IMG/VR virus record: IMGVR_UViG_3300041406_000077 | Location: 1-38,327 of that record | DNA: 38,327 nucleotides | Source: a virus | Direction: 5' to 3' (one strand) | Part shown: positions 1 through 38,327 of the stretch, piece by piece | How the letters are laid out: each line of letters begins with the position of its first letter | Position numbering within the stretch: the stretch's first letter is position 1 | Position numbers and translations under genes: made by a program | Notes under the pieces: generated by a model | The model's input: only the letters and a program-made list of their open reading frames with translations | What the model was told of the DNA's origin: nothing | The model's database searches: none

Positions 1-241
1 TCCGCGCGTCCAGGACCTTACGCCCGGACGGCGTCAGCCCCAACTGATCGCACGCTTTCAGATAGACGGACTGGGTGACGTTATCGAACCTGTTGTCTAT
101 GACCGGCCAGTCCGGGTCATCCAGGCGTTCGGCCATCATCATCAGCACCGCCACCGCGCCCTCATCCATCGCCGTGATGATGCCCTCACGCTTAGCCGCC
201 TGCACCGACTCGTTCGTGACCTGCCAGATTTCGCCCTGCAT
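1..241 (-). CDS. terS: Terminase small subunit, left copy, truncated by the window edge
   Basis: This is the first 80 codons of a protein nearly identical to the complete small terminase at 37676-37999; the 3' end lies beyond base 1. The start is ATG at 241, two bases after the stop of the membrane peptide gene, and an in-frame TAG lies four codons upstream, so no longer form is possible here. Compared with the right copy, the start is ATG instead of GTG and residue 7 is Gln instead of His; the other coding differences I could check are synonymous. The small subunit recognises packaging-site DNA and loads the large terminase. Confidence 0.85.
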   Translation of the reverse strand, partial: MQGEIWQVTNESVQAAKREGIITAMDEGAVAVLMMMAERLDDPDWPVIDNRFDNVTQSVYLKACDQLGLTPSGRKVLDAR

Positions 242-243
242 GA

Positions 244-318
244 CTAGCGCCTAATACCAAACAGGCCCACTACCAGGATGAGCAGCAGCAGAATAACGAT
301 GAGCCAAAGCGGGTCCAT
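244..318 (-). CDS. 24-residue single-span membrane peptide, left copy
   Basis: A tiny gene begins MDPLWLIVILLLLI and ends GLFGIRR, so it is one hydrophobic helix with a basic tail. ATG at 318 has an AAAGGAC ribosome site 6-8 bases upstream, and its TAG stop is two bases before the terS start. The right copy (38002-38076) encodes the identical peptide although the DNA differs at two synonymous positions, which argues that it is translated. Its composition recalls the very short bacterial hydrophobic protein families (DUF3309/Lmo0937-like). The function is unknown; coupling to terS is a possibility. Confidence 0.7.
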   Translation of the reverse strand: MDPLWLIVILLLLILVVGLFGIRR

Positions 319-478
319 GACCGTGTCCTTTCCGTGGTGTCCCTATACTGGGGTGTGGCAGTGGCCGGTGAGGTTCGCTTTTCGGGAGTAGAGCGAACCC
401 ATGACCCGGACGCCAGCCGCCAATTCCTATAGGCGGCTAAGCCCCCGCAGGTTGGGACTTGCGGGGGCACTTCCGTTT
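319..478. other. Non-coding three-hairpin segment, candidate cos/packaging region (left copy)
   Basis: Three inverted repeats stand in a row: GGTTCGCT/AGCGAACC near 372-399, AGCCGCC/GGCGGCT near 415-438 and GCCCCCGC/GCGGGGGC at 441-468, the last followed on the plus strand by ACTTCCGTTTTC. The segment lies between an HNH gene and terS, where cos sites sit in many HNH-associated cos phages. The last hairpin could also terminate transcription in either direction. The cleavage site itself cannot be read from sequence alone. Confidence 0.5.
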
Positions 479-1069
479 TCAGAACAGCGCCGGCTGTGCG
501 CCTGCCAGTGAGTCGGCCTTGATGTTGTTACAGATGAGATGCGCCAACTGCACGTTTCCGGGAACATGCGCCCCACCCAGCGACACCGGGACGATATGGT
601 CCAGGCTGGCGCTCATAGGATCCGGATACCTGGCCGACCTGCTTACACGCTTCCCGCAAATGCCGCAGCGCCAGCCGTCCCGCTCAAAGATTTCCCGCTT
701 ATTGATCGGGACGTAGTCCACACCATGACGGCGGGCGCGTTCCCTGTAGTGTCCGCGGCCACCGCCCTGATATGCGGGGTGGCCCTCAGCCCTGCGCTGT
801 GCGCGATAGTGCCGCACGCATTTATTCAGTGCGATGGTTGGGGCGTCGCAGCCATCCACCACGCACACCAGCGGTTGCGTCTTTGGCTGTCCAGACGGGC
901 GGCCCTTGGGGACATACAATTCACGCCTGCGCGCCAGCTTGCGGTCATTCGCGCCACTTTGAATCTGCCGCCGATACTTGGCGGCTTCCCTGCATGTCGC
1001 GGTGCAGTAGACATGATTAGGCCGGATCGACTCAAACTCTCCGGTACACCAGGCGCATGCGACCAGCAC
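479..1069 (-). CDS. HNH endonuclease beside the packaging region
   Basis: 196 residues. The N-terminal half has two Cys clusters (CAWC..., YCTATC at about residues 5-27, and CVVDGCDAP...C at about 69-88) that look like zinc ribbons. The C-terminal half is an HNH nuclease: REIFERDGWRCGICGK, then the catalytic SLDHIVPVSLGG and an Asn-rich end, LICNNIKAD. Such HNH proteins next to cos assist terminase cleavage in HK97-like phages. The start is GTG at 1069, seven bases after GGGAGG. The gene is absent from the otherwise matching right copy (38236-38327), so it behaves as an optional cassette. Confidence 0.88.
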   Translation of the reverse strand: MLVACAWCTGEFESIRPNHVYCTATCREAAKYRRQIQSGANDRKLARRRELYVPKGRPSGQPKTQPLVCVVDGCDAPTIALNKCVRHYRAQRRAEGHPAYQGGGRGHYRERARRHGVDYVPINKREIFERDGWRCGICGKRVSRSARYPDPMSASLDHIVPVSLGGAHVPGNVQLAHLICNNIKADSLAGAQPALF

Positions 1070-1100
1070 AGGCCAGCCTCCCGTCGTCTACCGTATTCCC

Positions 1101-1118
1101 GTCTACACATTATTAGAC
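1101..1118. promoter_or_regulatory. Operator-like palindrome upstream of the HNH gene
   Basis: GTCTA-N8-TAGAC, a one-base-longer variant of the recurring 17-bp motif, with another half-site GTCTA at 1086. On the minus strand it contains a TAATAAT -10-like box that would drive the HNH gene. The matching place in the right copy holds the standard 17-bp form at 38272-38288. Confidence 0.65.
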
Positions 1119-1135
1119 GTGACCCGGCTTAAAGC

Positions 1136-1231
1136 TCAGGGGAGAGATGGCACACTGCGGGCGAAAGCGTCCGCCCCTTGTTCAGCCAGGGATTCCGACG
1201 CCCCTACCCCTGGATGCTGTCGCTGGTGCAT
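1136..1231 (-). CDS. Possible 31-residue peptide
   Basis: An open frame begins at ATG 1231, sharing its A with the stop of the upstream HNH gene (TGATG), a coupling form used throughout this genome. The peptide contains ASESLAEQGADAFARS and has no recognised domain. Conservation cannot be judged because the right edge copy ends inside this region. It may be noise. Confidence 0.25.
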   Translation of the reverse strand: MHQRQHPGVGASESLAEQGADAFARSVPSLP

Positions 1232-1515
1232 CACCATTGTCTGGATAGGAGCCCTAGCCCCGGGGGTGGTGGCTTGTTGCCTCGTTGTTTGTTGCATTTG
1301 CTGTGTGCGGGTGCGAGGTTGGCGGGGTCCTCGCGTAGTTCGGGGTGGGTGGACCAGGCTTTGATGTGGTCCACGCTAAATGCCATGTCGTCGTCGGGGG
1401 TCAGTGTGTAGTCGATGGGCTGGCCGCATAGCCAGCAGGGTAGGCGTTTGGCTTTTAGTTCGCGGGCTAGGCGTTGGCCTCGTCTGCTGTGCCTGGCTTT
1501 GGCTGCTCCGTCCAT
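1231..1515 (-). CDS. Small HNH endonuclease
   Basis: 94 residues. The nuclease shows CWLCGQPIDY at about residue 30, then AFSVDHIKAWSTHPELRED with the catalytic DH, and NLAPAHSKCNKQRGNK with the closing Asn/His and Cys. This is the compact CxxC...DH...H..CN layout of small phage HNH proteins. The start ATG at 1515 has GGAGGAAC immediately upstream; longer open reading in this frame is low-complexity and not credible. It overlaps the 3' end of the HTH gene by 49 bases, so the two are probably co-expressed. Homing or packaging-linked cutting are both possible. Confidence 0.8.
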   Translation of the reverse strand: MDGAAKARHSRRGQRLARELKAKRLPCWLCGQPIDYTLTPDDDMAFSVDHIKAWSTHPELREDPANLAPAHSKCNKQRGNKPPPPGLGLLSRQW

Positions 1516-1754
1516 GTTCCTCCGCCTCGCGTTGGGGTCAGGACCATGGCCATGTCCAGGTGGTGCAGCATGCGGAACAGCATGGGTAGGGTGGGGGTGG
1601 CTTTGCCTGTCATGAGGAAGCTTAGGTGTTTGGTGCTGATGCCCAGGTGTCTGGCCATGAGGACGTGCGCTGTGCCTTTGGCTTGCATTTGTTGGCGGAT
1701 TAGTGGCATGACGTCGTCTGTGCTGTTGGCCAGTCTCACGTCGATGATGTCCAC
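1467..1754 (-). CDS. XRE-like helix-turn-helix protein
   Basis: 95 residues. The region around residues 16-60 (QQMQAKGTAHVLMARHLGIS, then KHLSFLMTGKATPTLPMLFR) has the length and pattern of an XRE-type HTH: an Ala-Arg-xx-Gly-Ile-Ser turn followed by a recognition helix. The start is GTG at 1754 with AAAGG about 12 bases upstream. It is the first gene of a short unit driven from the operator/promoter at about 1975, so it could be under repressor control and regulate late or HNH genes in turn. The function is inferred from the fold only. Confidence 0.7.
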   Translation of the reverse strand: MDIIDVRLANSTDDVMPLIRQQMQAKGTAHVLMARHLGISTKHLSFLMTGKATPTLPMLFRMLHHLDMAMVLTPTRGGGTWTEQPKPGTADEANA

Positions 1755-2406: not shown

Positions 2407-2912
2407 GTCGGCACCGCCTGGATCGCGAACACGTCCCCGAACATATCGACGCCTCGCGCCCGCATGGAATAGATGGCGGCTTGCGTTTGCTCATCGTATT
2501 CCCGCGCTGATGCCATGGTTTCTGCGGCGTTCCGGTAGGCCATTTGGGTGGAGGTCTGGAAATCCTCCTCAGTCCAGTAGCGCAGCAGTTTGGTTTCCCC
2601 GTCCGGGGTGCCGATGGGGTATGCCTGATCCAGCATCGGGTCGATGTAATCCGCGGATTCAGCGAAAGCGTCTTGGAGGTATTCGAGATTCTTTCTCAGG
2701 CTCCCGCGCCGCTTGCGCCGCAGCTTCTCGGCGCGTTCCGTGATGAACCTCGCAGCCTCAGCCTTAATGTCCCGCTCAACATTCGGCAGCTGCGCTTCCA
2801 CTTCATCCTGCAAGGCTTCCCGCAGTTCGTTGGGCTTATGGCCTCCTGGCCTCTTGTGTTCCTCGTCCCAGCGGCGGTCGAATTCCGCCTCTAGCGCTTC
2901 CCTGGTCATCAT
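2403..2912 (-). CDS. Hypothetical charged helical protein
   Basis: 169 residues, strongly charged, with a likely coiled-coil stretch over about residues 25-85 (DEVEAQLPNVERDIKAEAAR, EKLRRKRRG). No family is recognised. The start MM at 2912/2909 overlaps the stop of the ParB-like gene by ATGA, and its own stop overlaps the HTH gene, so all three are translationally coupled. A DNA-linked function is a guess from its neighbours only. Confidence 0.7.
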   Translation of the reverse strand: MMTREALEAEFDRRWDEEHKRPGGHKPNELREALQDEVEAQLPNVERDIKAEAARFITERAEKLRRKRRGSLRKNLEYLQDAFAESADYIDPMLDQAYPIGTPDGETKLLRYWTEEDFQTSTQMAYRNAAETMASAREYDEQTQAAIYSMRARGVDMFGDVFAIQAVPT

Positions 2913-3844
2913 GGCCGGTCGAACTCCTTAAGGATTCTGGTAATCATGGCTATGGCGTCGCGGCAGCGCTGCGGGGTTATCCGCATGCCTTCCACGACGT
3001 AATCCCGGTGGTGCGGCCAGAATGCCCTCATGAATGAGTCGCCCGGCGCTAGGCCGGCTATCAGGTGGACGGCCTCAGCCATGTGGACGTTTGCGCTGCG
3101 GATGCCTTGTTCTATTTGGCGCTGGGCCTCGCGTTCCTTGCGGGTGTCCTCCAGGTGCGCGGCCCAGGCCGCCGCCGGTGTCATGGTGCCGTCCTGGATC
3201 AGCGCCACATAACGGGACCCGGCCATGGTCAGATCCGCGACGATTCCGGCGTTCCGCTCCGCCTCCGCCTTGGCCTCATCCTTTTCCCGGCGGCGCTGCT
3301 CGCGTTCCAGAATCTTGTCCCGCTCCGCTGAATCCTTGACTGTCTTGGCCTCCTGATAGGCGGCGTCCAGTGCCAGATCCCCGTTCACCACGGCGTCCGC
3401 CAGATCCGGCCTGAAATCTAGGACCGTTCCGGCTAGCGCGAGGACAAAACGCCAATTCGATGCGCTATTTTGGGTTTCCAAAATATCGACACTGCCCCGT
3501 TTCCAGCGCCCGCCCTCGCGCCGCCCGTCCGCCAGCAGGACCAGCGCTGTGGCCATCGCGCGCGCCCCGGTGGACATGTTGCGGCGGGTGATGTTGGCGT
3601 CGATGACGTATTCCGCCAGGTCCGTGCCGTCATAGATGACATAGTGGGGTTCGACGCCCGCGAGGTCGCACGCGGCCGCGCGGTTCCTGCCGTCGAGGAT
3701 CAGCCCGTCAGGTGTGATGACCACGGGATTCCGCAGTCCGTTGGCGCGGATGGATTCGGCCAGTTCCTCCAGCTCCGGATCCGGAAGCATGGGGAACTTG
3801 TCCGCATAGGGGTGGGTTCCGGTGATGGCTTCCGTCGCCATCAT
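2909..3844 (-). CDS. ParB/Srx-type nuclease-like DNA-binding protein
   Basis: 311 residues. The N-terminal ParB domain is clear: HPYADKFPMLPDPELEELAE, SIRANGLRNPVVIT, and LDGRNRAAACDLAGV, the last matching the GxxRxxA nucleotide-binding box. A helical DNA-binding region follows (ITRRNMSTGARAMATALVLL) and then a long charged helix at about residues 180-240. Proteins of this type are common in actinophage early operons and are distinct from the small partner beside ParA at 15510. The start ATG at 3844 shares its A with the upstream stop (TGATG); a longer form from 3871 would run through the upstream gene. It could act in partition, recombination or regulation. Confidence 0.8.
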   Translation of the reverse strand: MMATEAITGTHPYADKFPMLPDPELEELAESIRANGLRNPVVITPDGLILDGRNRAAACDLAGVEPHYVIYDGTDLAEYVIDANITRRNMSTGARAMATALVLLADGRREGGRWKRGSVDILETQNSASNWRFVLALAGTVLDFRPDLADAVVNGDLALDAAYQEAKTVKDSAERDKILEREQRRREKDEAKAEAERNAGIVADLTMAGSRYVALIQDGTMTPAAAWAAHLEDTRKEREAQRQIEQGIRSANVHMAEAVHLIAGLAPGDSFMRAFWPHHRDYVVEGMRITPQRCRDAIAMITRILKEFDRP

Positions 3845-3990
3845 CACAGCCACCAGGTCGCGGTGGCCCATCCGGCGATGAGTCCGGCGGTGAGGTATGC
3901 GGCGTGGACGAGTGCGCGCCGTCGGCGGATCCTGCGCTGGGCGGGTCGGATGGTTTCCCGGAAAAACCTGTAGTAGCTGTCTGTGGTCAT
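3844..3990 (-). CDS. 48-residue single-span membrane protein
   Basis: MTTDSYYRFFRETIRPAQRR is followed by an Arg-rich stretch and a hydrophobic C-terminal helix (AAYLTAGLIAGWATATWWL). The positive-inside rule places the basic N-terminus in the cytoplasm. ATG at 3990 overlaps the previous stop (ATGA) and its stop overlaps the ParB-like start. Function unknown. Confidence 0.65.
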   Translation of the reverse strand: MTTDSYYRFFRETIRPAQRRIRRRRALVHAAYLTAGLIAGWATATWWL

Positions 3991-4631: not shown

Positions 4632-4882
4632 GGCGCGCCCTTGGCTGGTCCGGCCAGCGCGAAGTCCGCTTGCCATTGTTCGACGGCGAAGCCGAACGCT
4701 GCCAGGGCCGCGACGAACGGCTGGCAGTGCCTGGGGAAGTCCGTCACTGCGCGCTTGAAGTCGTACCAGGCCAGCCAGGCGCGGCCCTGCGGCGACTCCG
4801 ACAGGGCACGGCGCATGTAGAGCATGGCCAGGTTGGGCTGGCCCGTCCTTATGGCGTGTTCGGCGCGGCCGATGTAGTCCAC
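4628..4882 (-). CDS. Hypothetical protein, 84 residues
   Basis: Starts MDYIGRAEHAIRTGQPNLAM at GTG 4882, four bases after GGAGGG; a TTG twelve bases upstream is less well placed. The protein is helical and Trp/Phe-rich and resembles short conserved actinophage proteins with a tandem-helix pattern (AIRTGQPNLAMLYMRRALSE looks TPR-like). It is the first gene after the 4910 operator, so it probably opens a repressor-controlled transcript. Confidence 0.65.
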   Translation of the reverse strand: MDYIGRAEHAIRTGQPNLAMLYMRRALSESPQGRAWLAWYDFKRAVTDFPRHCQPFVAALAAFGFAVEQWQADFALAGPAKGAP

Positions 4883-4909
4883 TGTTCCCTCCAAAATTCG
4901 GCGTCTTGC

Positions 4910-4926
4910 GTCTATGGAATTTAGAC
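4910..4926. promoter_or_regulatory. Operator palindrome inside the early operon
   Basis: GTCTATGGAATTTAGAC, an exact GTCTA-N7-TAGAC match in the short gap between the SSB gene and the next gene downstream. It probably marks an internal promoter or a site where bound repressor blocks elongation. Confidence 0.7.
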
Positions 4927-4936
4927 GCTTCCGGTA

Positions 4937-5389
4937 TTAGTAAACAGGCCCGGCGGCCCAGTCGCTGCCACTTGCGGGCGTGTCCTGCGGCGCGCCCCAG
5001 CCGCCGGCGGTGCCGGTGTCCTGGCGCGGGGTGCGGGTGACCTGCGCGGACGCGTAGCGCAGCGACGGCCCGATGTCCTCCACTTCTACCTCCACGACGG
5101 TGCGTTTCTCGCCTTCCTGGGTTTCGTAGGACCTGGATTTCAGCCGCCCGGTGACGATGACCCGGGCACCTTTGGTCAGGGACTGCGCGGCGTTTTCGGC
5201 CTGTTCGCGCCACACCCCGCAGCGCAGGAACAGGGTTTCGCCGTCCACGGTCTGGCCGGTGTCTTTGTCGTAGCGGCGCGGCGTGGACGCGACGGTGAAA
5301 TTGGCGACGGCCTGCCCGGACGGGGTAAACCTCAGTTCGGGATCCGCTACCAGGTTGCCGATGACGGTAATGGTGGTTTCGTTTGGCAT
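4937..5389 (-). CDS. ssb: Single-stranded DNA-binding protein
   Basis: 150 residues. The OB-fold spans about residues 1-110: [20 protein letters not shown], then [38 protein letters not shown] and [19 protein letters not shown], all typical of bacterial and phage SSB. The C-terminus ends AGPVY and lacks the acidic DDDIPF tip through which cellular SSB recruits partners. The start ATG at 5389 shares its A with the upstream stop; a longer frame exists but has no SSB character. It would coat DNA for the RecT/exonuclease recombination system and replication. Confidence 0.92.
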
Positions 5390-5628
5390 CAGTTCAGCCT
5401 GACCCTTTCGTCCTCCGCGTCGGCCTCGGCCTGCCATTCCCTGGCGAGCTGCCGGGCGATGGCCGCAGCGCGTCGTTTGCCCAGCCCGTGCGCGAACGAC
5501 GTCACACGGAACCCGCCGGGTTTGTCCGGTTCAGTGGTTATGAGGATCAGCGCCAGGGGATAGTCCGGGTCGGCGTTTTTGAGTGCTTCCAGGATCCGGT
5601 CCACGGGCGGCTGGTCGGCGGCGCTCAT
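5389..5628 (-). CDS. Hypothetical protein, 79 residues
   Basis: Starts [20 protein letters not shown]. It contains [20 protein letters not shown] and a helical charged end. It is coupled to the upstream gene by ATGA and to ssb by TGATG, so its expression matches SSB. No family is recognised. Confidence 0.65.
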
Positions 5629-14871: not shown

Positions 14872-15513
14872 ATGGAAACCATCGCCATAGCCAGCCTGAA
14901 AGGCGGAACTGGCAAAACAACATCCGCCGCTTACCTGGCGCACGCGTACCAGCAATTAGGCCGGCGCGTGGTCATCGTGGACGCCGACCCGCAAGGCTCC
15001 ATCCTGGACTGGGCCGAAACCGCCGACTGGTCCATCCCCACCGTGGGCCTTCCGTCCGCGCAGCTCCACAAACGCCTCGCCGGGATCCTTGACGGCCGCT
15101 ATGACGTGGTCATCATCGACACGCCGCCATGGACGCCAGGCGCGACAGACAAGGGCCGCGAACCGCTGACGTCCGGAATCGTCTTTAGCGCCCTGCGCGC
15201 GGCCGATACGGTGGTGATCCCGCTGGCCCCCACGATGATGGAACTGCGCCGGGTCACGGCGACCCTGAAAGCCATAGACGACGTCGCCCCGCTCCGCGAA
15301 CATGACCCGCGCGTCCGTGCCCTGCTGAACCGGACGAAAGCGAACGCGTCCAGCACCAAAGTGATCCGGTCGGCGCTGGAATCGCACGGGTGCGCCGTGC
15401 TGGGTGCTGAGATACCCAGCAGGGAACCCGTCGCGCAGTCCTTTGGCGACCGCCTGCCCTCGAACCTGTACGGCTACCTGTCCGCAGCAATGGAACTGGA
15501 GAAGAACAAATGA
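14872..15513 (+). CDS. parA: ParA-type partition ATPase
   Basis: 213 residues. The deviant Walker A is KGGTGKTT at residues 10-17, the A' motif is VVIVDADPQGS at 33-43 and Walker B is VVIIDTPP near 79-86. It lacks an N-terminal HTH, which with its short length matches class Ib plasmid ParA proteins that partner with a small ribbon-helix-helix protein. It moves plasmid copies apart before cell division. The stop overlaps the next gene by ATGA. In a phage without integrase this points to a plasmid-like prophage, as known for some mycobacteriophages carrying parABS in place of an integrase. Confidence 0.93.
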   Translation: METIAIASLKGGTGKTTSAAYLAHAYQQLGRRVVIVDADPQGSILDWAETADWSIPTVGLPSAQLHKRLAGILDGRYDVVIIDTPPWTPGATDKGREPLTSGIVFSALRAADTVVIPLAPTMMELRRVTATLKAIDDVAPLREHDPRVRALLNRTKANASSTKVIRSALESHGCAVLGAEIPSREPVAQSFGDRLPSNLYGYLSAAMELEKNK

Positions 15514-32609: not shown

Positions 32610-33362
32610 ACTTGCCTCCAGTTCGGCGGCGTCCACCTGCGCCCTCCATGCCAGGATCCGTGCGGACGGGTCCGGTGCGGGTTCCTCGGCCTTGACGCTG
32701 CCCGCGCCCTCGGCCTTGACCTCGCCCGTCCCGCTGGCCTTCTCCTGATCCTTGATAACCTCCGCGGCCGCGAGGACGCCGTCTATCGCGTCCCGCGCCC
32801 CGCGCAGGCTGTCCACATGCTTACCGGACAGCACACGGCCCTCTTTCAGGCCGCCCGCCAGCCCGTCCGCCAGCGCCTTCACCGCCAGGATTTCCGTTTC
32901 CTGGTTCGCGCCGATCAGCACTATGGAGACTTCATAGAGCTTTAGTTCGTGCAGCTCATAGACGTCCTGGCCGTCCAGCTGCCCCAGGGATCCACGCACC
33001 ACGTCATAGGCGAAAGACATCTGGGACGCGCGCCGGCCTTTGAGCAGCCGGTGGACCTGGGCGGCTTTCGGGTTCTCCAGGTCCAGCAGCCCGCGAACAT
33101 ACAGGCCCTTGCCGTCCTCGCGCGCCTCCACGACATGGCCCAGGTTGTAGTCAGGGTCCGCCATGACGTGCGAATAGAGGACGGGCAGGAAGTTCCCGGA
33201 GCGCGCCCAGTCGGCCAGGGTGTTGGCGAACGCGCCGGGCATGACCACGTCCCCGTAACTGTCGGCGTTGCCGAACACGGACGCGTAGCCCTCAAATTCG
33301 CCCTCGGCCAGACCGTCGGCGGGTCCTGCCTTGAATCGGACCTGAATGTCCTTGGTTCTCAC
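32604..33362 (-). CDS. Prohead protease, HK97 (S78) family
   Basis: 252 residues from GTG 33362, six bases after GGGAGG. EFEGYASVFGNADSYGDVVM is the family's opening, LPVLYSHVMADP has the catalytic His, and ASQMSFAYDVV the catalytic Ser; LYEVSIVLIGANQETEIL is the conserved strand before the C-terminal helix. It digests the capsid scaffold domain and itself during maturation. The start lies inside the 3' end of the inserted HNH gene. Confidence 0.93.
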   Translation of the reverse strand: MRTKDIQVRFKAGPADGLAEGEFEGYASVFGNADSYGDVVMPGAFANTLADWARSGNFLPVLYSHVMADPDYNLGHVVEAREDGKGLYVRGLLDLENPKAAQVHRLLKGRRASQMSFAYDVVRGSLGQLDGQDVYELHELKLYEVSIVLIGANQETEILAVKALADGLAGGLKEGRVLSGKHVDSLRGARDAIDGVLAAAEVIKDQEKASGTGEVKAEGAGSVKAEEPAPDPSARILAWRAQVDAAELEASV

Positions 33363-33849
33363 TGTGACCTCCCTGGCCCCGTAGTAGATAGTCAATCGCC
33401 GCCTGAAGCGTTTGGATGTCGTCCCTGAAATGACCTAGGGCCAAGTTGCAGTGATGGCACAGCAAGCCCCGGACCGTCCCCGTGTCGTGGTCATGATCCA
33501 CAGAGAAAGTCCTCGCGGCGGGGTCTGTGGATCGGCAAATGGCGCATTGGCCATTCTGTTCTGCCAGCATCCGGTGATAGTCCGCTGGCACCATCCGATA
33601 GCGAACCCATAGTCCGACGGCCCATCGTTCCTCTGTCGTGCGCTTTGGGCGGTTTTGGCTCTGGCGTTTCACCGCTTCCGGATTCGCGGCCTTCCACGCC
33701 AGTGACTTGGCTTTCGCGCAGTCCCGACAGTATGAGTCCAGTCCGGAGCGCATCCGCGTATTCACGCGGAACGCCTCCGCTGGCTTGTCTTCTCCGCAGA
33801 TAAAGCACACTTTCGATACAGGCGTTTCCCGCACCACTTTCCAGGCCAT
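33292..33849 (-). CDS. Endonuclease VII-type HNH nuclease inserted in the head operon
   Basis: 185 residues. Cys pairs FICGE and YCRDCAKAKS stand at the N-terminus. The core is QCAICRSTDPAARTFSVDHD, then HDTGTVRGLLCHHCNLALGH and LQAAIDYLL, the Endonuclease_VII signature (DH, N, Cys4 zinc). It lies between portal and protease, where phages normally have none, and its last 24 codons overlap the protease start in another frame. It is probably a free-standing homing endonuclease. Confidence 0.88.
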   Translation of the reverse strand: MAWKVVRETPVSKVCFICGEDKPAEAFRVNTRMRSGLDSYCRDCAKAKSLAWKAANPEAVKRQSQNRPKRTTEERWAVGLWVRYRMVPADYHRMLAEQNGQCAICRSTDPAARTFSVDHDHDTGTVRGLLCHHCNLALGHFRDDIQTLQAAIDYLLRGQGGHSENQGHSGPIQGRTRRRSGRGRI

Positions 33850-36102: not shown

Positions 36103-37743
36103 TCAAACCACCATTAGGGCGCCGTCCTCATAGGCTGACACCTGCTGAACCTCCACCGGGCGGGACACGTCCCACACCGCGCCCGATACCGCCATCAGCG
36201 GCGCGGCACCGTGCGGGGAATCCTTCCGGTTCCACACCCACGAATCGCCCAGCGGCTTGGTCACCGCCGTGGCCGCGACCAGGTCCAGGACGGGCTGGGG
36301 CAAATGCCAGATCCGCGCCGGCCTGTCCGCTTCCGTTTCGCCCGCCGCCGGGTCCGGCTTCCAGACGTGCGCGCGGATCCCGTCATAGAACCGCCCGCAG
36401 CCTGCGCCCAGGTCCGTGCCGCCCCACTCGATGACGTCCACGTTCTCCAGTTCCTTTAGCTGCGGCACCAGGCCCGACACCGGAGCGCCCCGCGCCTGAA
36501 CCACCACGCGCAGCCGCCGGGTCGGGGACGCCCTGGACGCGAACCATTCCAGCGCCCAGTCCTGCCCGTACCTGGCCGCGACGATTTCCGCGTGCAGCCC
36601 GCCGTCCGGACGCCTGCCCGCCACGCCGATAAAGGTCCGGGTCCGGTCATGCTCAGTATCCACACAAAAGGTCACCGGCTCATCCGCGGGAATGGACGAT
36701 CCCGGGTCCGTCCCGGCCTCCCAGGATCCCGGCGGGAACGGCCCCTCAGCCGCGCCGTCGTTCCACTGACACAGGACCTCAGTCCTAAACACCCATTCCG
36801 GGTCCGTGCGGCGCGCCGCCATGATGGCCCGCTCAGTGATCGCGTACCCCAGCGACGGGTTAGCCGCAGCCCAGCCGTCCCGGTCATCCATCGAACAACC
36901 CGGCGGCGCGGACCATTCAAAGATCGCCAGCGAATCGTCGTCGGTGACGTCCTCGCCATCCGGTGGCGCGTCCGCCAGGACCACGTCCATGCCGTCGCTG
37001 TTGATCCCGTCCGGGTCACCCAGCGACGCGTGCGCCATCATCCGCAGGTAGCGCAGCACCACACTGGACGCGTCGCCGGCGTTGGACAGTGCAAGGATGA
37101 GCGCCAGCGCCCGCGCCATCGTTGTCTTGGTGATCGCGCCCCAGGCGTCCCAGCTTTGATGCTCGCGCAGTTCATCCAACAGGATCAGGTCCCCGGCCAG
37201 GCCACGGCCGCCGCGCCTGGACGCCGCCTGCACCTTGTACCGTTCGCCGCCCTCCAGCTCCAGCGCTTTCTTCCCGTTCGTCCGGTTTACCCGCCGAATC
37301 TCAGCGGCGAGGTCCGGGCAGTCCTCAGCGATTTCCACCGCGCCCTGCCAGACCTCTTCCGCGATGTCCAAATTCTGCGCCGTGCCGATGACCAGGCGCG
37401 CCGCCCGGACGTACATAAAGAACAGCGCCATGACCTGCGCGATAGTGGACTTGCCATTCTGCCTGGCGACCAGCAGAACCACGGTCCGGAAACGGAATGA
37501 CCCGTCCGGCAACAGCTCCATGGCGTGGATCAGAAACCACTTTTGCCACGGGTACAGCTCCATGCCCAGGATGTCCTGGGCGAAGTCGATGCACGCGAAA
37601 CCCGCCGACGTCTTAGGCGTCAGCCGGCGCAGCGGCGGCGTAAAAATCCGCGGAACCTCATGGCCCAGCAGCGGCTTAGGCGCGCTTCCTGGCCGACGTC
37701 TTGGCGCCGCCCTGGACGGCCCGGAGCTGCGCGAGCTTGCCAC
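36103..37743 (-). CDS. terL: Terminase large subunit
   Basis: 546 residues. The ATPase has the adenine-binding PWQKW (65-69), Walker A ARQNGKST (93-100) and Walker B DLILLDEL (185-192), with the coupling region around NAGDASSVVLRYLR. The nuclease half has CVDTEHDRTRTFIGVAGRRP with the first catalytic Asp, and a conserved closing part (HVWKPDPAAGETEADRPARI). It pumps and cuts DNA at the portal. GTG 37743 has GGAAGGAGG upstream and overlaps terS by 68 bases in another frame; a later start near residue 30 cannot be excluded. Confidence 0.95.
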   Translation of the reverse strand: MASSRSSGPSRAAPRRRPGSAPKPLLGHEVPRIFTPPLRRLTPKTSAGFACIDFAQDILGMELYPWQKWFLIHAMELLPDGSFRFRTVVLLVARQNGKSTIAQVMALFFMYVRAARLVIGTAQNLDIAEEVWQGAVEIAEDCPDLAAEIRRVNRTNGKKALELEGGERYKVQAASRRGGRGLAGDLILLDELREHQSWDAWGAITKTTMARALALILALSNAGDASSVVLRYLRMMAHASLGDPDGINSDGMDVVLADAPPDGEDVTDDDSLAIFEWSAPPGCSMDDRDGWAAANPSLGYAITERAIMAARRTDPEWVFRTEVLCQWNDGAAEGPFPPGSWEAGTDPGSSIPADEPVTFCVDTEHDRTRTFIGVAGRRPDGGLHAEIVAARYGQDWALEWFASRASPTRRLRVVVQARGAPVSGLVPQLKELENVDVIEWGGTDLGAGCGRFYDGIRAHVWKPDPAAGETEADRPARIWHLPQPVLDLVAATAVTKPLGDSWVWNRKDSPHGAAPLMAVSGAVWDVSRPVEVQQVSAYEDGALMVV

Positions 37744-37999
37744 CCTTGTCCGCCTCCTTCCGCGCGTCCAGGACCTTACGCCCGGACGGCGTCAGCCCCA
37801 ACTGATCGCACGCTTTCAGATAGACGGACTGGGTGACGTTATCGAACCTGTTGTCTATGACCGGCCAGTCCGGGTCATCCAGGCGCTCCGCCATCATCAT
37901 CAGCACCGCCACCGCGCCCTCATCCATGGCCGTGATGATGCCCTCACGCTTGGCCGCCTGCACGGACTCATTCGTGACGTGCCAGATTTCGCCCTGCAC
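37676..37999 (-). CDS. terS: Terminase small subunit, complete right copy
   Basis: 107 residues from GTG 37999, matching the start position of the left copy. EGIITAMDEGAVAVLMMMAE, RLDDPDWPVIDNRFDNVTQS and YLKACDQLGLTPSGRKVLDA are the helices of actinophage small terminases; a basic Ala/Lys tail follows. The frame stays open upstream for 76 codons, but those codons overlap the membrane peptide gene and the hairpins and are not protein-like. It selects the packaging site for the large subunit. Confidence 0.85.
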   Translation of the reverse strand: MQGEIWHVTNESVQAAKREGIITAMDEGAVAVLMMMAERLDDPDWPVIDNRFDNVTQSVYLKACDQLGLTPSGRKVLDARKEADKGGKLAQLRAVQGGAKTSARKRA

Positions 38000-38001
38000 G
38001 G

Positions 38002-38076
38002 CTAGCGCCTGATACCAAACAGGCCCACCACCAGGATGAGCAGCAGCAGAATAACGATGAGCCAAAGCGGGTCCAT
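38002..38076 (-). CDS. 24-residue single-span membrane peptide, right copy
   Basis: Encodes exactly the same peptide as 244-318 (MDPLWLIVILLLLI... ending GIRR) with synonymous base changes. ATG 38076 has AAAGGAC upstream; TAG 38002 lies two bases before the terS GTG. It is probably co-translated with terS. Confidence 0.7.
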   Translation of the reverse strand: MDPLWLIVILLLLILVVGLFGIRR

Positions 38077-38235
38077 GACCGTGTCCTTTCCGTGGTGTCC
38101 CTATACTGGGTGTGGCAGTGGCCGGTGAGGTTCGCTTTTCGGGAGTAGGGCGAACCCATGACCCGGACGCCAGCCGCCGATTCCTATAGGCGGCTACGCC
38201 CCCGCAGGTTGGGACTTGCGGGGGCACTTCCGTTT
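38077..38235. other. Non-coding hairpin segment, candidate cos region (right copy)
   Basis: Has the same three hairpins as the left copy. GCCCCCGC/GCGGGGGC at 38198-38225 is unchanged. The GGTTCGCT stem has one altered base (AGCG to GGCG, still able to pair as G-U), and one base in the middle hairpin's loop differs. Confidence 0.5.
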
Positions 38236-38271
38236 ACAAGCGGGCTTGAAACAATCCAGTGTCTACATGGC

Positions 38272-38288
38272 GTCTACCTTTATTAGAC
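38272..38288. promoter_or_regulatory. Operator at the right edge
   Basis: GTCTACCTTTATTAGAC, an exact GTCTA-N7-TAGAC site with another half-site GTCTA at 38261. It is the counterpart of the 1101 site and would control the late operon or HNH promoter (TAATAAA on the minus strand). Confidence 0.7.
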
Positions 38289-38327
38289 GCGTGACCCGGC
38301 GTGTCCTTCCGGGGGGAGAGGGAACAC

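Follow-up and report, generated by a model that had tools for sequence, protein, structure and literature searches.

The terS/cos region at the two edges of one viral record

The window, a virus record of 38,327 bases with a linear classification, carries similar copies of the terS/cos region at both edges, and an HNH endonuclease gene accompanies only one of them. Do the two copies belong to one molecule or to different genomes, and what is the optional gene beside the packaging site? By alignment, positions 1–478 and 37759–38235 are ~97% identical, with 14 mismatches and one 1-nt gap, in agreement with the preliminary description. The left copy (1..478, minus strand; assigned below to strain A) comprises the leader, a small ORF and the 5' part of terS, which the contig end cuts; the right copy (37759..38235, minus strand; strain B) covers the same region. 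By sequence comparison, strain A terS (2..241, minus strand) starts with ATG and is truncated by the contig end. Strain B terS (37676..37999, minus strand; Terminase_6 PF23931, 7e-10) is complete and starts with GTG. Eight terS codons differ between the edge copies, mostly silently: six changes are synonymous, and the other two are Q7H and the start codon, ATG in strain A and GTG in strain B. The differences are unevenly distributed, with none in the first 127 nt and all 14 mismatches in the other 351 nt.

The HNH gene (HNH1; 479..1069, minus strand; 196 aa; PF01844, E 1.7e-9; phrog_8660, 1.5e-22) lies between cos and terS of strain A and is missing from the right copy. Its stop codon (479–481) is the exact homology boundary of the left copy, as had been proposed. 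The right copy was said to have other bases at this point; it does have ~25 unrelated nt, but a more diverged homology then resumes (38261–38327 versus 1079–1155, local alignment). Since homology lies on both sides of HNH1, the gene sits inside the shared region as a cassette with a homologous flank at either end. A hydrophobic small ORF of 24 residues (MDPLWLIVILLLLILVVGLFGIRR; 244..318, minus strand), read from the sequence directly upstream of terS, is kept in both window copies and in two sibling contigs (L007 and L010).

The closest isolate matches of the window are Arthrobacter phages of 38–39 kb, with ~75% DNA identity over terL-terS; a terL scan of genome contigs returned distant relatives only (≤61%). 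The minus-strand order is cos, terS, terL (36103..37695, minus strand; phrog_9, 1.6e-82) and the rest of the genome, with HNH2, a second HNH gene, and cos last. The window also encodes a ParA-like partition protein (14872–15510, plus strand; phrog_164, 4e-36) and a ParB-like protein (2912–3871, minus strand), and the genes scanned, a part of the gene set, included no integrase. Because of this combination, the prophage may exist as a plasmid outside the chromosome. A third nuclease gene, Endonuclease_7 (33295–33849, minus strand; PF02945, 2.5e-25), adjoins the portal gene in the structural region and is probably another mobile nuclease.

The left edge is an assembly-graph fork and the right edge a cos end

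Bases 1–127 are exactly those of 37759–37885, and base 128 is the first mismatch. From the mismatch rate (14 per 478 bases) we estimate the chance of an exact 127-nt run at the very end at roughly 0.0006. In a de Bruijn graph, two paths out of one vertex have exactly k bases in common. The standard JGI metagenome assembly runs metaSPAdes with k = 33,55,77,99,127 (PMC10434106). The left edge is an assembly-graph fork at k = 127: the identical prefix is exactly 127 nt long, the A and B branches part at this vertex (1..127, unstranded), and its continuous copy lies at 37759..37885 (unstranded). The start of sibling contig L007 (IMGVR_UViG_3300042122_000055) has the same property, its first 127 bases being window 2170–2044 with divergence immediately after, in a region where the two are otherwise 85% identical. 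Contig ends that have exactly k bases in common with another path and then diverge were therefore found both at window position 1 and at the L007 start. The 127-mer in common with L007, and not the record name, points to assembly 3300042122 as the likely source of the window. Some sibling contigs have exact stretches longer than 127 nt in common with the window (182 nt); if they belong to the same assembly, one edge would be needed in two paths, which counts against the strain-fork reading.

At the right edge, the strain B cos-proximal leader without a cassette (38236..38327, minus strand) ends at base 38327, the left end of cos and a physical DNA terminus. It aligns base for base with the record starts of Arthrobacter phage isolates (Renna12, Andrew, Galaxy, Chickaboom and others). 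The tip reads GTGTTCCCTCTCCCCCCGG in phage orientation and the Renna12 record begins GTGGTCCGTCTCCCCCCGG. The right ends of the isolates read TTGCCGGCA or close variants, and in closed loci the cos junction appears as GCCGGCA/GTG. At least nine other metagenomic contigs (L071, L073, L102, L105, L108, L119, L129, L139, L140) stop at the cos-end base, within 1 nt. Contig ends at cos are thus recurrent, which explains why strain B stops at 38327. The window accordingly has its terminus at a conserved cos sequence beside terS, as cos-packaged Arthrobacter phages do. We also considered the right end as a bubble arm rejoining the window, and rejected this: none of the right-tip k-mers of 14–127 nt recurs in the window, so the end is a dead end, accounted for by cos.

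On the left, cos is closed. The strain A junction (1155..1156, minus strand) reads GCCCGCA/GTGTGCC in phage orientation, as placed by alignment with six Arthrobacter phages whose records end in TTGCCGGCA and begin with GTGG...TCTCCCCCC. Next to it lies the strain A cos-proximal leader (1079..1155, minus strand), where homology to the right tip (38261–38327) restarts in local alignment. Given this homology beyond the HNH gene, the left edge consists of closed cos, HNH1 and terS, and the right edge of cos, no cassette and terS. The bases preceding cos depart from the usual TTGCCGGCA in the window (1156/1155), in L007 (position 1047) and in L010 (position 4621); they are GCCCGCA with HNH1 alleles and GGCCAGCA with the Dam allele. 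As the pre-cos bases track HNH1 versus Dam alleles, the type of cassette may go together with the type of cos.

The window very probably joins two co-existing strains

The preliminary description left three origins for the edge copies: a genome assembled from two co-existing strains, a true duplication, or a junction of related prophages or multimers. The first is the one borne out by the fork, the cos end and the siblings, and we hold it to be highly probable that the window was assembled from two co-existing, closely related phage strains. The edge copies are, with strong support, alleles from different strains and not two copies within one molecule, because of the k = 127 fork on the left, the cos end on the right and the different cassettes in single-copy siblings. 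L007 and L010, both from 3300042122, run unbroken through HNH2, cos, cassette, terS and terL, with one terS each. In a contig from a different sample, 3300041999 (L009/L065, 3300041999_000031), 217 nt are identical to the left copy and lead into a terL of its own, unlike the window's near terS. Over 5.3 kb this contig and the window show 40 differences, most within 37284–37970, followed by a 3,292-nt identical stretch.

The window would then represent a single cos-type genome, Arthrobacter-phage-like, that the assembler put together from a mixed population. Followed on the minus strand (phage orientation), the path would start from strain B at the natural left end of cos (38327), run via terS, terL and the remaining genome, cross the closed cos at 1156/1155 and enter the cos-HNH1-terS of strain A. 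It would stop where strain A terS meets the 127-mer in common with strain B. We infer that packaged linear DNA with its end at cos supplied most of the B reads, and that circular or concatemeric DNA supplied the A reads.

That both copies lie on one contig and both appear selected could also be expected of a single phage genome with two terS/cos regions, one of them with HNH. A second, internal cos would be cut at packaging, the siblings have a single terS, the left copy stops exactly at the 127-nt fork, and the A-type terS occurs elsewhere with its own terL; we reject such a true duplication, whose chance is minimal. Similar contig ends could likewise be a direct terminal repeat of one strain, altered by sequencing errors. 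We give this practically no credence: the differences are biased toward synonymous changes, a 591-bp HNH gene is in one copy only, and the relatives are cos-type without terminal repeats. Somewhat less remote, and still very unlikely, is a junction of two related prophages (a tandem double lysogen) or a mixed-infection concatemer of two phages, read through closed cos. The closed cos at 1156/1155 does mean that part of the sampled DNA existed in a circular, concatemeric or lysogenic form, and the ParA-like gene is in keeping with such a state; yet neither an attachment site nor host DNA separates the copies as far as was seen, and a junction predicts neither a k-mer-fork end nor a physical cos end. 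It gained no specific support.

The interval between cos and terS is a variable cassette slot

In the two strains themselves, the interval between cos and terS contains HNH1 (196 aa) in A and is empty in B. L007 has a Dam methyltransferase there (PF05869, 3.6e-14) and L010 a longer HNH1 (4699–5418). A more distant HNH gene (47%) occupies the slot of L073, from the same metagenome. In the cos-terS intervals of L067, L069, L077 and L086, we found no HNH1, Dam or Galaxy-type gene. Within one sample, the occupant of the slot can be an HNH gene, a longer variant of HNH or a Dam methyltransferase. Among isolates, Chickaboom has no gene in the slot, Galaxy and TaylorSipht have a 114-aa gene, and Renna12 and Ruchi have genes of 57 aa and 174 aa. 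Across related phages, the cos-terS slot is filled by an HNH nuclease, by a Dam methyltransferase or by another small gene, or is left vacant. Gene 1 of LittleTokyo (MN703409.1) is annotated as a terminase large subunit ATPase domain, yet it is a ~113-aa variable-slot gene, kin to gene 1 of Galaxy and Andrew.

The suggestion that the locus captures an HNH cassette being gained or lost next to the packaging site survives in outline. The two edges are not a simple before-and-after pair, as the right copy is Dam-haplotype-like at both flanks. We dropped the reading of the right copy as the HNH haplotype minus HNH, since its flanks (TCCGCTTGTAAACGG and GCGTCTAATAAAGGTAGACG) fit the Dam haplotype of L007 better. 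Cassettes would most likely be swapped by recombination in the conserved flanks, namely the cos leader and the block of hairpin, small ORF and terS, and cutting by HNH1 might aid the exchange.

The N-terminal part of HNH1 has one C-x2-C...C-x3-C module in the window (479–1069) or two in L010 (4699–5418), the second being an additional N-terminal cysteine module; the catalytic half is nearly constant. As judged from sequence, this variation is putative domain shuffling in the DNA-recognition part. One could imagine a standing exchange slot of competing DNA-acting cassettes at the packaging origin, in which HNH1, with its varying N-terminal cysteine modules (one in A, two in L010), would cut the cos-proximal DNA of rivals, Dam-type cassettes would protect, and strains would exclude each other at cos. 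We consider this improbable.

HNH2 (1231..1530, minus strand; PF01844, 9.5e-10) lies across cos from HNH1, at the right end of the genome, where it is also found in relatives. HNH1 has the location of a packaging HNH nuclease, sitting at 479–1069 between cos (1155) and terS (241), but not the conservation, as it is missing from strain B, L007, L067, L069, L077 and Chickaboom. HNH2 combines a place beside cos with conservation across the group. Because HNH2 is present in nearly all loci with enough sequence and HNH1 is variable, HNH2 appears to be the better packaging-nuclease candidate. Being optional among co-existing strains, HNH1 cannot be generally required. It has an HNH catalytic domain and shows presence or absence at a fixed site with homologous flanks, as a homing endonuclease does, and is likely an accessory gene, possibly of homing type.

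Relation to known systems

The window resembles Arthrobacter phages of the Galaxyvirus, Andrewvirus and Kuleanavirus type (Galaxy, Andrew, Renna12, TaylorSipht, Chickaboom) in genome size (38–39 kb), cos start (GTG..TCTCCCCCC), terS-terL order, right-end HNH2 and variable genes between cos and terS. It differs from them in that terS/terL DNA is only ~75% identical and that none of those inspected has HNH1 or Dam in the slot. In the Gordonia phages Easley, Clark, Beenie, GAL1 and Vine, gene 1 is an HNH endonuclease and gene 2 is terS, so that, as in strain A, the HNH gene lies between the left genome end and terS. Their gene 1 product shares homology with HNH1, at 52% across the C-terminal half or 30% across the full length, although the phages are distant from the window. 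Packaging HNH nucleases were reportedly described by Kala and by Quiles-Puchalt, both in 2014, for HK97 gp74 and staphylococcal cos packaging. As in the window, an HNH gene adjoins cos and the terminase genes in those systems; here HNH1 is optional among co-existing strains and HNH2 fits the packaging role better. Homing endonuclease genes occur at phage exchange boundaries near essential genes (PMC10448857), and HNH genes have been described in Skunavirus (PMC12724721). HNH1 resembles these in its position near essential genes, its presence/absence polymorphism and its domain shuffling. The window differs from them in that the slot also takes a non-nuclease gene (Dam), and homing or cleavage by HNH1 is putative.

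Implications

Imperfect repeats at the ends of a viral contig classed as linear can mean that it is a complete cos phage whose genome was closed across two strains. Such strain-mixed contigs can be recognised by two signatures: a match over exactly k bases at an end, and an end lying at cos. An HNH gene beside cos and terS is already known from Gordonia phages, so the result is a modest and ordinary one: the novelty lies in the particular sequences and in how varied the cassettes are within one sample, not in the kind of arrangement. The cassette polymorphism at this site is real, and its interest is modest. With several alleles of a packaging-site gene slot within one metagenome, exchange of the HNH cassette becomes testable in isolates.
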